Under the pieces are notes generated by a model. That model was not told where the DNA came from, did no database searches, and saw only the letters and a program-made list of their open reading frames with translations. Below, in pieces: positions 56,349 through 64,000 of a stretch of DNA of 64,000 nucleotides (positions are counted from its first letter, which is position 1; each line of letters begins with the position of its first letter). Where the stretch lies: the NCBI RefSeq assembly GCF_015291745.1, contig NZ_CP030059.1, positions 6,537,501-6,601,500 on the forward strand, read 5' to 3'. A program made the position numbers and the translations under genes. The stretch comes from Bradyrhizobium sp. CCBAU 53351. Lineage in GTDB: Bacteria; Pseudomonadota; Alphaproteobacteria; Rhizobiales; Xanthobacteraceae.

Positions 56349-58039
56349 CCGCGCGCAGGCCGCACCGGAGCCGAGATCTTGTCCGTGCGATCGCGTTCGG
56401 TCATGTCGACCACGGTCTCCATGGGAGCGGTCAGCTCATAGACGTAGGAGGCCTCGGTGAAATAGCGCTTGGCGGTGCCGCCGAGCGCCTCGGGGGCGAC
56501 ACGGTCGAGCAGGATCAGGCCGAAATCGGAATCCGGGCGGCGCGTCGCCTCGCTGGTGTTGAACTCCTCCCAGCGGAAACTGAAGATCTCTTCGGTCCCC
56601 TCGCCCGTCACGGTCCAATTAGCCGTGATGTGCGGATGCTTGCCAACCAGCGACAGGCCCTCGTCCGAATGCGAGGCGAGTTCGAAGAACAGCAGCGAGA
56701 GGCTCTGCGCCGCGCGTGCGCTGACCGCAATATCCGGACCGGTGACGGCGATGCGGTCGGCATGCGGGATGGCTCGCGCCTCGAACAGGCCCTTCAACTT
56801 GACGCCCTGCCATTGGCTCTCGCTGAGCAGCGAGACCACGTTGGACATGGCATGGATTCGCCCGATCAGGAGCTCGCGGGCGACGTCGATGTCCGAGCCG
56901 TGGCGCAAGGTGCGCGTCACGATCGACTGGATCACCGCAAGGATATTCTTGACCCGATGGTTGAGCTCGTCGATGACCGCGGTCAGCCGGCGCTCGAAGC
57001 CGATCCGGACCTGGATTTCCCGGCTGAGCCGCAGATTGTTGTAGGCGACATAGCCAAACAGACCGCACACCATCGCAGTGATCGCAAAGCCGATCGCCGC
57101 CACGATGATCGCAGTCTGCTCGGCACGCCGCACCGAGTTGGTCTTCGCGTAATAGCCGAGTTGCCAATCACGGCCACCGAAGCTCACCGTACGCGTCGCC
57201 GACGGCGCCGCTCCGTCCGCCGCCACGCTGCGCGTCGAGACCACGCCCTGGTCGTTGGCGATCAGCTCGCCGCCCTCCTTGCGCGGATCCCTGAGCGCGA
57301 CCGAGAACAACGACATGTCGTCATTGGTCAGCATCAGCGACGCCAGCTCGTAGGAAAACGTGACGAACCCAGCCGGCTCGGTTGCCCCCTCGGGAATGAC
57401 GGGCGCAGCCACGATGACGCCGACCGGCCCGTTTGCGCGCAGCAGCGGAACCGGGTCCGAAGCCACTGACCTCTTCTCGATCCGCGCACGCGTCAGCATG
57501 GCGCTGCGAACCTGGTCCTGATCGTAACTGCGGCCCGGCAGGGCCTTGGTCTCGTCGCTGCGCGGCTCGAGATCCAGCAGCACGTCGATCGGCTGGGTAA
57601 TCTCGGCAGGATTGATCGGCTTGTCGTCATAGTTGCGGATCGTCGGATTCGGGAAGCCGGCGCCCCCAATGGCGGCCTGCGCCGCCGTCAACTCGTTCGG
57701 CTTCAACCGGGCGATCCAGCCGGCCACCACGAAATCCGTCTTGAAGGCGTAGATGGCCGAGCGCAGCGGCTCCAGCATGTTCGGCTTGATCACGGACGGC
57801 GTGCGGAACAGGCCTGAGGCGACACGCGCAAGCAATTCGCGCTCGGTGAGCCGGTCCTGAACCAGGCTGGCATGCACGTCGATCGCACGCGCGAGCGCGA
57901 TCCGGTCCAGTGCCAGCTCCTGATCGTGGACGCGATAGGCCGCAAGCCCGGAGAGCAAGGCTCCGAGCAGAGCAATGAAACCGATGATGAAACCCAGCCG
58001 GACCACGCGACTACTCAGGCGAAAGCAGGAGGTCGGCAA
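56345..58039 (-). CDS. CHASE-domain HWE-type sensor histidine kinase with degenerate ATP-binding site
   Basis: This is a 564-residue membrane protein. TM1 lies near residues 14-34. A CHASE periplasmic domain (about 60-270) has VVAGWIARLKPNEL and GVIVAAPVIP. TM2 is at about 305-330. The kinase core has the phospho-acceptor ELNHRVKNILAVIQSIVTRTLR (His about 359), which places it in the HWE/HisKA_2 group. In the ATP domain the normal H-E-L-x-x-N-A-x-K-Y-G N box reads LFFELASHSDEG, so the Mg-binding Asn is gone. The G-box DFGLILLDRVAPEALGGTAKRYF is recognisable. Activity may be lost or altered. The start is TTG 58039, or GTG 58006; no ATG fits. The partner regulator is not adjacent. Confidence 0.87.
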   Translation of the reverse strand: MPTSCFRLSSRVVRLGFIIGFIALLGALLSGLAAYRVHDQELALDRIALARAIDVHASLVQDRLTERELLARVASGLFRTPSVIKPNMLEPLRSAIYAFKTDFVVAGWIARLKPNELTAAQAAIGGAGFPNPTIRNYDDKPINPAEITQPIDVLLDLEPRSDETKALPGRSYDQDQVRSAMLTRARIEKRSVASDPVPLLRANGPVGVIVAAPVIPEGATEPAGFVTFSYELASLMLTNDDMSLFSVALRDPRKEGGELIANDQGVVSTRSVAADGAAPSATRTVSFGGRDWQLGYYAKTNSVRRAEQTAIIVAAIGFAITAMVCGLFGYVAYNNLRLSREIQVRIGFERRLTAVIDELNHRVKNILAVIQSIVTRTLRHGSDIDVARELLIGRIHAMSNVVSLLSESQWQGVKLKGLFEARAIPHADRIAVTGPDIAVSARAAQSLSLLFFELASHSDEGLSLVGKHPHITANWTVTGEGTEEIFSFRWEEFNTSEATRRPDSDFGLILLDRVAPEALGGTAKRYFTEASYVYELTAPMETVVDMTERDRTDKISAPVRPARG

Positions 58040-58301
58040 TAAACAAGGAGCATATGAACGCCGCTCGAACGGCCATGTGCCGAAACAGGGTGAACCCCGG
58101 TGGCAGAGATAATGGAGGAGGAGACATCGGTACGCAACGTAGGTCGCCTGAAAAGCTTAATCCGCCCGGCCGATGGTCTGGCCAGGATGGATCGCCCGGG
58201 CACCGGAGGTAATCAATCGCCGTGTCCGAAATTTGTTCCGCCGTTGCGGCCCGGCCGCCAAGGTTAACGGCGAAAAACGCGTGCGCCAAGTCGTCGCGCC
58301 G

Positions 58302-58925
58302 TCAGCCCGCCCGTTTCAGGCCGCCTTTGGCCTCAATGAAGCCGATGATCCGGTCGAGCCCTTCGCTCTTCTTCAGGTTGGTCATGACGAAGGGACGCTC
58401 GCCGCGCATGCGCCTGGCGTCCGTGTCCATCTTCTCCAGGGAGGCGCCGACATGGGGAGCAAGGTCGATCTTGTTGATGACCAGGAGATCGGACCGGGTG
58501 ATGCCTGGCCCCCCCTTGGACGGGATCTTGTCGCCGGCGGCGACGTCGATCACGTAGATGGTGAGGTCGGCCAATTCAGGGGAAAAAGTGGCAGCGAGAT
58601 TGTCGCCGCCGGATTCGATCAGCACGAGATCGAGCCCGGGAAACTTGGCGCGCATGTCCGCGACCGCAGCCAGATTCATCGAGGCATCCTCGCGGATCGC
58701 GGTGTGCGGACAGCCGCCGGTTTCGACGCCGGCAATGCGGTCCGGCGTCAGCGAGCCCGACCGCACCAGGAACTCCGCATCCCATTTGGTGTAGATGTCG
58801 TTGGTGATGGCGGCGATGTCATAGCGTTCGCGCATGGCCTTGCAGAGCAGGTCCATCAGCTGGGTCTTGCCCGATCCGACCGGACCGCCGACGCCGACAC
58901 GCAAAGGGCCGTGAGATTTCGACAT
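58302..58925 (-). CDS. ureG: Urease accessory GTPase UreG
   Basis: UreG hydrolyses GTP to drive nickel insertion into urease. The 207-residue protein has the P-loop [39 protein letters not shown], the nickel-relay motif [18 protein letters not shown] (Cys-Pro-His), [22 protein letters not shown] and [22 protein letters not shown]. It lacks the His-rich N-terminal extension of some UreG proteins, the His tail here being on UreE. ATG 58925 lies 40 bases beyond the ureF stop. It is the last gene of the operon. Confidence 0.97.
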
Positions 58926-58965
58926 GTCGTTCGCTTTCTCCCGATGGGTTGAAGGCGCGGCGCCC

Positions 58966-59688
58966 TCACGAGCGGAACAGCCGCGTATATTGGGTCTCGT
59001 GCCGCAGGCTGGCGAGATCGGCGCGGAAGGTCGCGCCGCCGAGATCGTCCAATGTCGCATTCAGCGCACGAAGCGCGGTCGCGGCCACGGCGGCTTCCAG
59101 CCTCACCAGCACGCGCTGGCTGTCGGTCTGGCCGAGTGGAACGAGGCGGCTGGCCGCAGAAATCCAGTTCGAGACCAGCGCATGCAGGAAGGCGTGCAGC
59201 GTCGACCCCAGCGGCACGCCGTGCACGGCTGCGACCACACCGACCGCGACCGGATAGACCGGCGGCGTGTGGCACGCCGCAACCATGGCATCCAGCCCGT
59301 CGGCATCCCACGCCGCACGCGCGATGTCGATGAAGGCGCGGCCTTGCGAGCTCGTCTCCAGCTGCCGCTCGCGCGAAGGCACGAAGGCCGCGGCAAGCTC
59401 GGCGATCTCGTTCAACGAGACCTTCTCGCCCGCCTCTGCGGCGCGATAGGCGTGGACCAGAAACGTCGCATCGCAAAAGCCGGAGCCGTCGCTGAGCATC
59501 GCGTCGAGCCAGTCGTCCAGCGTTGCAACATCGACGATGTCCCCCGCCTCGACCGCCCATTCGATGCCGCTGGAATAGGAGAAGCCGCCGACCGGGAAGG
59601 CCGGCGACAGCCAGGTCATCAGCCGATACAGCGCCGCCGCCTCGCTTTCGTCGAGGCCGCCGGCGCCGACCCGCTCATTTGTGGTCAT
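58966..59688 (-). CDS. ureF: Urease accessory protein UreF
   Basis: UreF acts as a GTPase-modulating partner of UreG in the UreDFG activation complex. The 240-residue protein begins [49 protein letters not shown], the recognised family start ([12 protein letters not shown]). It continues with [27 protein letters not shown] and [25 protein letters not shown] near the C-terminus. ATG 59688 overlaps the 3' end of ureE by 14 bases. The longer in-frame extension upstream is a Met/Thr/Ile-rich shadow of the UreE His tail and is not part of the protein. Confidence 0.96.
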
Positions 59689-60310
59689 GAGCATGCTTGT
59701 GGCCGTGGTGATGGTCCGGATGGTCGCAATGCTCGTCATGGTGATGATCGTGGCCGTGGTCATGCGCGGCATGACCATGCTGGTGATCATGTCCGTGGTG
59801 ATCATGGTGATCGTGACCATGATCATGATGATGGCCATGATCGTGATGCGCGTGGTCGTCATGTCCATGCGCGTTGCCGGCATCGGCATAGGCGCCGCCT
59901 TCGGGATCAAACGGCGCCTCGATCTCGATCACGCGCGCGCCGAGGCCCATCACCATGGCCTCGATGACGTGATCGCGGCGGATGCGCAAGGCCTTCGCCA
60001 TGATCTGGGTCGGCAGATGACGGTTGCCGAGATGCCAGCCGACGCGGATGAGGTGATGGGGATCGCGGCCGCGGATTTCCAGCAGCGGCTCGGGTGCCGC
60101 CACCACTTCGACCAGGCGACCGTCCTCGAGCACCAGCGCATCGCCGCCGCGGAGTGCTGTGGCGTGCTCGAGGTCGAGCAGGAATTCGAGCCCCCGCGTG
60201 CCCGTCATCGCCATGCGGCGGCGGTGCCGATCGTCGAAATCGAGCACAACCGTGTCCGCCGGCGTTTCCGCGAAGCGGTGCTGTCCCTTGACCTGCGTCG
60301 CCCGGATCAT
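59675..60310 (-). CDS. ureE: Urease nickel chaperone UreE with very long His-rich tail
   Basis: UreE delivers nickel to the urease apoprotein. The 211-residue protein has the N-terminal substrate-binding-like domain ([37 protein letters not shown]) and the central metal-binding domain with [17 protein letters not shown] (the His that binds Ni at the dimer interface) and [29 protein letters not shown]. From about residue 148 the tail is almost only His, Asp and Gly: 34 His in 64 residues, including one Cys. That is far longer than the 10-15 His tail of Klebsiella UreE. It may buffer nickel. ureF overlaps its end. Confidence 0.96.
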
Positions 60311-60322
60311 GCTTTTACCCCG

Positions 60323-60622
60323 TTACCGTGTCTCGACCTTCTCGGGCGTGATCACTTCGATCTTCGGCGGCGCCGTGAAGCATTTCACCGCGACGCGGCC
60401 GAACGTCTTCATATGCTCCATGCCACGATGCGGCACCAGCGCCTCGGCGTTCTCCCACTGCTCGACGAACACCATCTTGGCAGGGTCGGTGACGCTCTCG
60501 TGCAGATCATAGGCGATATTGCCGGGCTCTTTCCGGGTCTCCTTGATGCAGGCGGTGGCGGCCGCAATGAATTCGGCGCGCGTTTCGGGCTTGATGGTCA
60601 GGGTGGCGACGACATAGATCAC
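60323..60622 (-). CDS. Antibiotic biosynthesis monooxygenase (ABM) domain protein in the urease operon
   Basis: This is a 99-residue ferredoxin-like alpha+beta protein. After GTG 60622 (GGGAGG eight bases ahead) comes YVVATLTIKPETRAEFIAAATACIKETRKEPGNIAYDLHES, then MVFVEQWENAEALVPHRGMEHMKTFGRV, the ABM/YgiN pattern with the H-x-x-x-x-H pair. Such proteins dimerise and act on quinones or related compounds, or have stress roles. Placement between ureC and ureE without an obvious link to nickel or urea is odd. It is 12 bases ahead of ureE and 127 bases after ureC, which leaves room for an internal promoter. Confidence 0.88.
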   Translation of the reverse strand: MIYVVATLTIKPETRAEFIAAATACIKETRKEPGNIAYDLHESVTDPAKMVFVEQWENAEALVPHRGMEHMKTFGRVAVKCFTAPPKIEVITPEKVETR

Positions 60623-60749
60623 GAGAAATCCTCCCGGCTTTTCTTCTGGGTTCAATACCGGGCGGGACATTAGACCAGGCGGGATCGAACGCAAAATCGC
60701 AAGAAACCGTCCCCGGATACAAGCCGGGGACATGCGTTGAGGCGCTATT

Positions 60750-62465
<1,716 letters not shown>

Positions 62466-62499
62466 CACAAGCCCCGTTTGCGGTTGAACGTTTGGTGGA

Positions 62500-63039
62500 T
62501 CACAGCAAGGCCTTCGCTGCTTTCACGGCATCATCGAATTTCGCCTCGAGCCACGCATTACCGCCGCGGCAGCCCGCAACGACTTGCGTGGCCCATCCAC
62601 TGTAGTCGGCGAGGTCGTCAAGCTCCTCGGTGGTCGGATCCGTATGAAGGCGTGCCCCTATATTGCTGATCTTGTCGGCGATCTTGATCAGCTTCGCGCC
62701 GGGCGATTTGTGCAGAGCGTCCTCGATCTGCTTCCGCCGCCGCTCGGCCTTCGGCAGATTCATGTCGTCCGTGCACTCAACGACCAGGGCGGCGACTCGC
62801 TCTGAGAACGTCTGCGCAAGCTCCTCGCGCGTGGTGTCGGTGTCCTCGATCGCATCGTGCAGCCAGCCGGCCGCGACCAGCTCGGCATCGGCGCCGTCGG
62901 TCGCGGTCGCAAGCAGGTTCGCAACCTCGGCGAGATGATTGATATAGGGCTCGCTGCCGCGCCCCTTGCGTGCCATGCCGTTGTGGCGCTGTGCGGCGAG
63001 CTCGGCAGCTTCAGATATGAGACGGATGGGGGAGAGCAT
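62500..63039 (-). CDS. HD-domain small alarmone hydrolase (MESH1-like) inside the urease operon
   Basis: This is a 179-residue metal-dependent phosphohydrolase of the RelA/SpoT HD type. Metal and catalytic motifs are all present: AAQRHNG, PYINHL (first His), [13 protein letters not shown] (HD plus ED), and [11 protein letters not shown] (Asp and Asn). The stretches [29 protein letters not shown] and [20 protein letters not shown] align with human and bacterial MESH1. That enzyme removes pyrophosphate from ppGpp and can act on NADPH. There is no synthetase domain. GGAGGT sits eight bases before ATG 63039, which decides this start over the ATG at 63054. It lies between ureB (57 bases before it) and ureC (34 bases after). 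Confidence 0.92.
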
Positions 63040-63096
63040 GGCAAGGACCTCCATTCTCGCCTCAACCGTGCCGTGCCGCGCTCGTTCCTGCGACGC

Positions 63097-63402
63097 TCAC
63101 AGCTTCCCCATTACATCGCCGCGGAAACCGTAGATCGTCTTCTTGCCCGCCATCGCCACCAGCTGCACATCGCGGGTCTGGCCAGGTTCGAAACGCACCG
63201 CGGTGCCGGCGGCGATGTCGAGGCGCATGCCGCGGGACTTCTTGCGGTCGAATTTCAGCGCCGGGTTGGTCTCGAAGAAATGGTAGTGCGAGCCGACCTG
63301 GATGGGGCGGTCGCCGGTGTTGGCCACCGTCAGCGTCACAGTCTTGCGGCCCGCATTGAGCTCGATCTCGCCGTCCTGGATGAAGAGTTCGCCGGGGATC
63401 AT
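63097..63402 (-). CDS. ureB: Urease beta subunit
   Basis: This is a structural subunit of urease, 101 residues. It begins [53 protein letters not shown] and continues with [44 protein letters not shown], both universal in UreB. It starts nine bases after the ureA stop. In this operon ureB is separated from ureC by the HD-domain gene. Confidence 0.97.
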
Positions 63403-63411
63403 GCTGCCCTC

Positions 63412-63714
63412 CTACCTGATCGGCTCGTGCACGGTGACGAGCTTGGTGCCGTCCGGAAACGTCGCCTCGACCTGGATGTCGTGGATCATCTCGGGGATTC
63501 CAGGCATCACCTGGTCGCGGGTCAAGACCTGCGCGCCGGATTGCATCAGTTCGGCGACGGTGCGGCCGTCGCGCGCGCCTTCGAGGATGAAATCGGAGAT
63601 GATCGCGATGGCCTCGGGGTGGTTGAGCTTGACGCCGCGGTCCAGCCGGCGGCGGGCCACGATCGCGGCCATCGAGATCAAGAGCTTGTCCTTTTCGCGG
63701 GGAGACAGGTTCAT
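63412..63714 (-). CDS. ureA: Urease gamma subunit
   Basis: This is the small structural subunit of urease, 100 residues. [99 protein letters not shown] is a textbook UreA. ATG 63714 follows the ureD stop by 24 bases, so it is read from the same transcript. It is unfused to ureB, as is usual in rhizobia. Confidence 0.97.
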
Positions 63715-63738
63715 GCGAAATCTCTTCCGTTCAACACT

Positions 63739-64000
63739 TCAATTCAGCCAGAGCCGCGGCAGGGCCACGCCGGTGCGCGCCAGCACGGCCATCATGTCGG
63801 CGCGCAAACGCGCCGCATCTTGGGCACAGAACCGCGCCATTGCAAAGCCATTCCAGGCCGAGATTCCGACCTCCCCTGAGAACGAGTCCGAGGCCTCGCG
63901 GATGCGCTCGACCAGAGCCTCGTCACCGGGGACGATCAGGGCCGTGCCGATCGCCGCCCCGCCCCTGGCAACTGCCGATCGCGCGAGCTTTGCGCCGATA
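63739..64000 (-). CDS. ureD: Urease accessory protein UreD, C-terminal part (5' end beyond the window)
   Basis: UreD binds apo-urease and recruits UreF-UreG. Only the last 86 codons are in the window. The minus-strand frame reads RARLRADMMAVLARTGVALPRLWLN-like sequence at the end and GEALVERIREASDSFSGEVGISAWNGFAMARF before it, the UreD/UreH C-terminal pattern (...LPR-x-W). It is the first urease gene in the visible part of the operon, and the promoter should lie beyond position 64000. Confidence 0.9.
   Translation of the reverse strand, partial: IGAKLARSAVARGGAAIGTALIVPGDEALVERIREASDSFSGEVGISAWNGFAMARFCAQDAARLRADMMAVLARTGVALPRLWLN

Follow-up and report, generated by a model that had tools for sequence, protein, structure and literature searches.

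A Mesh1-type small alarmone hydrolase homologue in the urease operon of Bradyrhizobium, probably under nitrogen control

A small alarmone hydrolase homologue between ureB and ureC

The window analyzed here is a stretch of 64,000 nucleotides from Bradyrhizobium sp. CCBAU 53351, located on the 7.36-Mb contig of an 8.34-Mb genome that is assembled in two contigs. Between ureB and ureC it contains a gene for an HD-domain protein that we identify as a homologue of the Mesh1-type small alarmone hydrolases (SAHs). The gene is a member of one SAH lineage that recurs in urease operons. As the best explanation we propose that it encodes a Mn-dependent 3′-pyrophosphohydrolase, driven by σ54 under nitrogen shortage, that would lower alarmone levels and aid regrowth on urea; we judge this proposal, taken whole, to be evenly balanced between right and wrong. 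The gene and its candidate ribosome-binding site are as follows.

62500..63039, minus strand: SAH homologue, an HD-domain protein of 179 amino acids, Mesh1-type (open reading frame (ORF), Pfam, PDB and predicted model)
63047..63052, minus strand: GGAGGT, ribosome-binding-site-like, 7 nt before the ATG of the 179-residue frame

An in-frame ATG further upstream would give a protein of 184 residues; the 7-nt spacing of the GGAGGT fits the ATG of the shorter frame. The gene is separated from ureB by 57 bp and from ureC by 34 bp when counted to the ureC ATG (31 bp to the listed GTG). The Pfam HD_4 model matches the protein with 61.3 bits (cut-off 27.2; general HD model, 26.4), and the scan found no synthetase domain. 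One HD_4 domain alone, with no synthetase, TGS or ACT domain beside it, is the domain content of a Mesh1-type SAH. The closest solved relatives in the PDB are human MESH1 (3nr1, E = 3e-34, the best match) and Drosophila Mesh1, and the predicted structure model has the SAH fold. An original prediction, made from the letters of the window, had described a stand-alone alarmone hydrolase of 179 residues at this place, lacking a synthetase domain, with its own GGAGGT and with gaps of 57 and 34 bases; each of these particulars was recovered, and domain content, PDB relatives and catalytic residues support the assignment as a Mesh1-type homologue.

Across the source genome HD_4 has two matches, the SAH gene and a 765-residue Rel frame. 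The RelA_SpoT synthetase model has one match, in the same Rel, 3.4 Mb from SAH, and on this ground we rejected the antitoxin of a toxSAS pair as a candidate.

Residues were numbered as in human MESH1, with positions assigned by alignment. The window protein retains R24, K25, Y32, H35, H61, D62, E65, D66, D91, D122, N126 and Y146. These include the residues that we take to be the metal and catalytic set (H35, H61, D62, E65, D66, D122 and N126, plus R24, K25 and Y32), so the alignment gives the protein the active-site residues of a Mesh1-type SAH. The claim that it keeps every MESH1 motif holds for this catalytic set and fails at four positions, where W138 is replaced by E, R142 by D, R128 by G and K93 by M. 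These four replacements and the bacterial operon context distinguish the protein from human and Drosophila MESH1 (HDDC3). Among Bradyrhizobium SAHs, position 138 is E, D, A or G and position 142 is D or E. A literature search on the role of MESH1 W138, R142 and Y146 found nothing.

Conservation at urease loci within Bradyrhizobium

We examined a draw of 146 Bradyrhizobium genomes and a named collection of the 80 best named loci. At E = 1e-8 the protein matches 143 of the 146 genomes, many of them through the long Rel alone, and a close copy is present in 101 (in G003 it is split over contigs and represented by one of two fragments). All close copies except that of G074, where the two genes are on different contigs, lie on the same contig and strand as ureC (100/101). 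SAH is upstream of ureC, with a gap of 2–70 bp in 96 genomes and of 562–580 bp in 4. In the named collection SAH precedes ureC in every locus (80/80), with ureA and ureB upstream in 78; the exceptions are L011 and the contig-end locus L039. The gene is thus far from peculiar to a single isolate, the outcome that the original prediction had named as its refutation, and its place at urease loci is conserved in the genus and recurs in related genera. SAH is under purifying selection, with a median ratio of nonsynonymous to synonymous substitution (dN/dS) of 0.15 from 150 random, non-independent pairs per gene drawn from at most 81 loci.

Three observations concern individual loci. Locus L011, from Bradyrhizobium cajani, reads SAH-ureC-ABM-ureE-ureF-ureG and has no ureA or ureB match within 5 kb upstream (ABM, antibiotic biosynthesis monooxygenase domain). 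All but one of the 80 named loci bear the title Bradyrhizobium; the exception, L071, is titled Frankia sp. RB7, and its SAH is Bradyrhizobium-like and its ureC groups with Bradyrhizobium, so the title is probably wrong. Further SAH copies, about 50% identical and away from urease, occur in the genus at L152 (G012), L154 (G025), L155 (G053) and L157 (G039); the G025 copy has two stops, and the three intact copies sit in the unlinked group of the tree described below.

One SAH lineage recurs in urease operons

A family draw gave matches at 1e-14 in 25 of 149 genomes, 118 of which have ureC. Outside Bradyrhizobium there are 20 matching family genomes: seven are urease-linked (G172, G249, G210, G162, G211, G155 and G252, from five genera that include the Rhodopseudomonas genus, g28), 12 are unlinked in the stretches inspected, and G231 is a special case taken up below. 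In three Rhodopseudomonas loci SAH ends and ureC apparently begins within a shared GTGA. The copies of G211 (L089), G155 and G252 occupy the ureA-ureB slot rather than the ureB-ureC slot. One Bradyrhizobium genome, G109 (L156), has the order ureA-SAH-ureB-SAH-ureC, its two SAHs belonging to different subclades.

At greater distance, 32 of 249 genomes in an order draw and 15 of 289 in a class draw match. From these we inspected 35 loci, comprising 21 of the 27 order-level genomes outside the family and 14 class-level places; the six order-level genomes left out have weak matches (E between 1e-15 and 1e-14), of which five lie in long frames resembling Rel. A broad alphaproteobacterial link to urease was rejected, as urease genes were seen in only one of the 35 loci, L103 (G401), although several others end near the gene, where urease genes may be cut off. 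The genus of G401 is apparently Methylobacterium: the Methylorubrum extorquens protein P0212 shares 96% and 92% identity with the copies of its members G1055 and G993. Within this genus the order ureA-ureB-SAH-ureC is found in 20 of the 21 genomes that match. In the wider family of G401, 4 of the 13 SAH-like loci inspected are urease-linked, two of them from genus g384. PLSDB holds 27 plasmid records that match SAH at 33–44% identity.

An SAH tree places all 30 urease-linked rows, together with P0212, in one group of 37 rows (97/91, starred), and all of the other 41 rows, including human MESH1, are unlinked. The urease-link label changes four times on this tree, compared with about 24 times when labels are shuffled. 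A starred clade (96/88) unites the copies in the ureA-ureB slot; those in the ureB-ureC slot within the window's family make up a clade at 91/90 that is not starred. The tree subsamples Bradyrhizobium and Methylobacterium-type rows, and it leaves out fragments or broken rows (L154, L158, L159 and two from L137), the near-copy L160, fly Mesh1 and 11 long-branch or remote rows (L101, L115, L120 to L122, L130, L133 to L136 and L140); the trees include metazoan Mesh1 and no reference Mesh1-L. A fuller tree made before Methylobacterium was added also gives four label changes, and there the all-linked group is not starred (81/96). Because all linked rows fall in one group, the tree indicates that it is one SAH lineage that recurs alongside urease, with either one origin followed by losses or several origins.

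Operon structure and a conserved σ54-like site

The urease genes of the window, all on the strand of SAH, are listed in the direction of transcription.

63739..64000, minus strand: ureD, 3′ part, continuing beyond the window (UreD in L162:1240-2070)
63412..63714, minus strand: ureA, urease gamma subunit
63097..63402, minus strand: ureB, urease beta subunit
60750..62468, minus strand: ureC, urease alpha subunit (ATG at 62465)
60323..60619, minus strand: ABM-domain small protein (Pfam PF03992), conserved after ureC
59675..60310, minus strand: ureE, with a histidine-rich tail
58966..59760, minus strand: ureF, start uncertain
58302..58931, minus strand: ureG

The order on the minus strand is thus ureD (partial), ureA, ureB, SAH, ureC, the ABM ORF, ureE, ureF and ureG, and beyond the window the same strand continues upstream with the rest of ureD and then urtE, urtD, urtC, urtB and urtA. 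From this arrangement SAH is very probably cotranscribed with urease.

A σ54-like box, TGGCA[C/T][G/A][G/C]TTCTTGCG, stands before urtA in all loci inspected (21/21), which include two from the Rhodopseudomonas genus and two from Bradyrhizobium without SAH. This is the position expected in an RpoN/NtrC-controlled urt-ure operon, before its first gene. The box precedes codon 61 of the urtA frame, as listed, by 158–171 bp, and the likely ATG at codon 35 by about 80–95 bp. In the source genome it is at L162:7827-7842(-), with one mismatch to the pattern; 2.5 matches with up to two mismatches are expected by chance in that stretch, and the weight of the site rests on its conserved place. Inside the window no σ54 site was found at up to one mismatch, the box being upstream of urtA, and no internal σ70-type promoter was found in 58000-64000. 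With the σ54-type site before it, urtA is the apparent first gene of the operon; this favors nitrogen limitation over induction by urea, and SAH is probably controlled by nitrogen limitation. The suggestion that the hydrolase is made only when urea is used did not find support.

A further line comes from Bradyrhizobium DOA9, where ureA-D and urtA-D fall in rpoN mutants (PMC13207237, 2026). In Table 1 of that report hddc3 (BRADOA9_v1_40434), which carries the annotation MESH1, is entered with the RpoN site given for urtABC, and its position is left blank; RpoN-site candidates were cross-referenced there with RpoN-responsive genes. The fragments named for its gel shifts do not include the urtA promoter, one being called 'ABC-transporter'. 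The hddc3 tag is 8 after that of urtA, as in the order urtABCDE-ureD-ureA-ureB-SAH found here, and BRADOA9_v1_40434 is probably the orthologue of the window SAH. In the main text as available 'hddc3' and 'MESH1' occur once each, both in Table 1, and 'ppGpp' does not occur; no connection between alarmones and urea was seen in that text.

Relation to characterized SAHs and a proposed function

The nearest characterized relative appears to be SAHMex (MexAM1_META1p3226), reported to hydrolyze pppApp and ppApp and neither (p)ppGpp nor NADPH (PMC7644958). M. extorquens is reported to contain pppApp and to have a single SAH (PMC6491832); by organism name and by this statement, P0212 would be SAHMex. 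P0212 is 57% identical to the window protein and falls in the same tree group, and its two near orthologues named above (96% and 92% identical) are located between ureB and ureC, suggesting that the gene of the assayed SAHMex has the same position in strain AM1. The Methylobacterium-type linked SAHs keep both W138 and R142 (20/20), unlike those of Bradyrhizobium. A search of the literature found no mention of a urease link of SAHMex, no paper joining urease with a small alarmone hydrolase, MESH1 or pppApp (PMC13207237 says 'urea', not 'urease'), and none joining urease, HD domain, Methylobacterium and ureC; in the available text of PMC3153485 'urease' occurs 0 times.

A second comparison is XccSAH of Xanthomonas campestris, an orphan SAH that is reported to hydrolyze all alarmones tested and NADPH weakly, and to affect NADH in vivo (PMC9765508). 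Like the window protein it is a stand-alone SAH without a cognate toxic synthetase; XccSAH itself belongs to the Mesh1-L subgroup, and its description, by which rather than by sequence we compare the two, mentions no urease link. According to the same source, what bacterial SAHs do in the cell beyond acting as antitoxins is poorly characterized.

In the chain of events that we favor, nitrogen limitation would activate the σ54 promoter upstream of urtA, and the urea importer (urt), urease and SAH would then be transcribed together. The Mn-dependent SAH would remove the 3′-pyrophosphate of (p)ppApp first and possibly that of (p)ppGpp, holding alarmone down in cells now living on urea-nitrogen and easing their return to growth. 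As SAHMex, probably of the same urease-linked lineage, acts on (p)ppApp, the favored substrate shifts to that alarmone, and by analogy (p)ppApp may be the main substrate of the Bradyrhizobium protein. A bolder version, which we advance tentatively and regard as doubtful, is a nitrogen-regulated alarmone off-switch, in which a distinct SAH lineage wired to urea scavenging under σ54 would erase alarmone, mainly pppApp, raised by starvation. NtrC activates relA in E. coli (PMC4066584), and such an off-switch would be the opposite arm, or mirror, of that regulation. Few contexts are known for pppApp, and a urease-operon SAH lineage behind a nitrogen-type promoter supplies one; it may also tie the published SAHMex biochemistry to a pathway, and it opens to direct test, in tractable laboratory strains of M. 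extorquens, Rhodopseudomonas and Bradyrhizobium, whether nitrogen scavenging and alarmone turnover are connected.

Evidence against the proposed role and alternative explanations

Several observations weigh against this proposal. No close copy was found in 40 of 141 ureC-bearing Bradyrhizobium genomes, some of them incomplete (142 have ureC; G045 was left out of the count), and because of these genomes SAH is dispensable rather than an accessory gene required wherever urease occurs. Twelve of the 40 were inspected and none has SAH between ureB and ureC; the gap measures −4 to 131 bp in seven, and it holds a DUF559-like ORF in four and another small ORF in one. A ureC tree, made by a quick method from 45 of the 80 named loci together with further ones, needs six changes of SAH presence among its 61 Bradyrhizobium rows, four of them forced by starred branches, and SAH has thus been lost or gained several times in the genus. 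In the apparent Methylobacterium genus only 21 of 111 genomes carry SAH though 107 have ureC. The 37-row tree group includes six unlinked rows, G231 among them, five of which show neither urease nor urt genes in the stretches inspected. G231 itself (L087, Rhodopseudomonas genus) has no ureC match, yet an intact SAH lies beside a histidine-rich ureE, making this genome a natural test of urease-independent SAH function.

The residues raise a further difficulty. Other SAHs mostly keep W138 (46/49) and R142 (41/49) whereas Bradyrhizobium has replaced both, so the specificity of SAHMex may not carry over. Two urease-linked SAHs of genus g384 (L185/G821 and L186/G937) carry D66K, N126G and Y146W, plus Y32F, and are probably catalytically dead pseudoenzymes as judged from these changes; the entry title of a crystal structure of human MESH1 with PAPS (3′-phosphoadenosine 5′-phosphosulfate) likewise names D66K.

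The strongest rival holds that SAH is a hitch-hiker in a permissive slot, a cassette that merely uses the operon promoter and serves housekeeping nucleotide scavenging unrelated to urea. The ureB-ureC gap does accept other genes: DUF559-like ORFs occupy it in at least 20 of the 80 named loci and patatin-like ORFs in at least four, assigned by clustering except for one DUF559-like and one patatin-like ORF (L034) checked with Pfam, and it holds further small ORFs, of which the member tested has no Pfam match. The repeated loss or gain of SAH and its survival in G231 are also what a passenger would show. Yet SAH is the commonest insert among the loci inspected and usually abuts ureC directly; it occurs in two different slots in related lineages, and in both in G109; it overlaps neighboring genes in the Rhodopseudomonas genus and, in L089, ureA; and among the 35 order- and class-level loci urease genes accompany it only in L103, a member of the same lineage. 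We consider a mere passenger unlikely.

Less probable still is a non-alarmone substrate phosphorylated at the 2′ or 3′ position (NADPH, or PAPS/PAP, the latter 3′-phosphoadenosine 5′-phosphate), by which SAH would tune cofactor or sulfur metabolism during nitrogen scavenging. Human MESH1 structures have been solved with NADPH and with PAPS, according to the entry titles, and the replacement of W138 and R142 in Bradyrhizobium suggests a changed putative pocket. The weak action of XccSAH on NADPH and its effect on NADH would fit as well, although its reported kcat/Km values, computed from Table 3 of PMC9765508, are about 240 to 2900 times higher for alarmones than for NADPH, and SAHMex, probably of the same urease-linked lineage, does not hydrolyze NADPH (PMC7644958). 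An antidote to toxic (p)ppApp synthetases of competitors, placed in an operon expressed under soil conditions, has the preference of SAHMex for (p)ppApp and the often self-protective action of bacterial SAHs (XccSAH aids survival against competitors; PMC9765508) on its side, and is nevertheless highly improbable, as the genome has no synthetase domain other than Rel's, σ54 control fits nutrition better, and the linkage to urease is given no reason.

Other genes at the urease loci

The ABM-domain gene stands between ureC and ureE in all named loci (80/80), and several other genomes have a second ABM-like match beside it. A patatin-like phospholipase gene is present in the urease operon of L034, L046, L049 and L075, in the ureB-ureC gap, and of L090. 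The DUF559-like ORFs (for example L041:4458-4997) are also present in the ureB-ureC gap of loci without SAH, and their ends often resemble PPPLRGRVGERG and LPRKGGGN, as if a repeated element bordered them.
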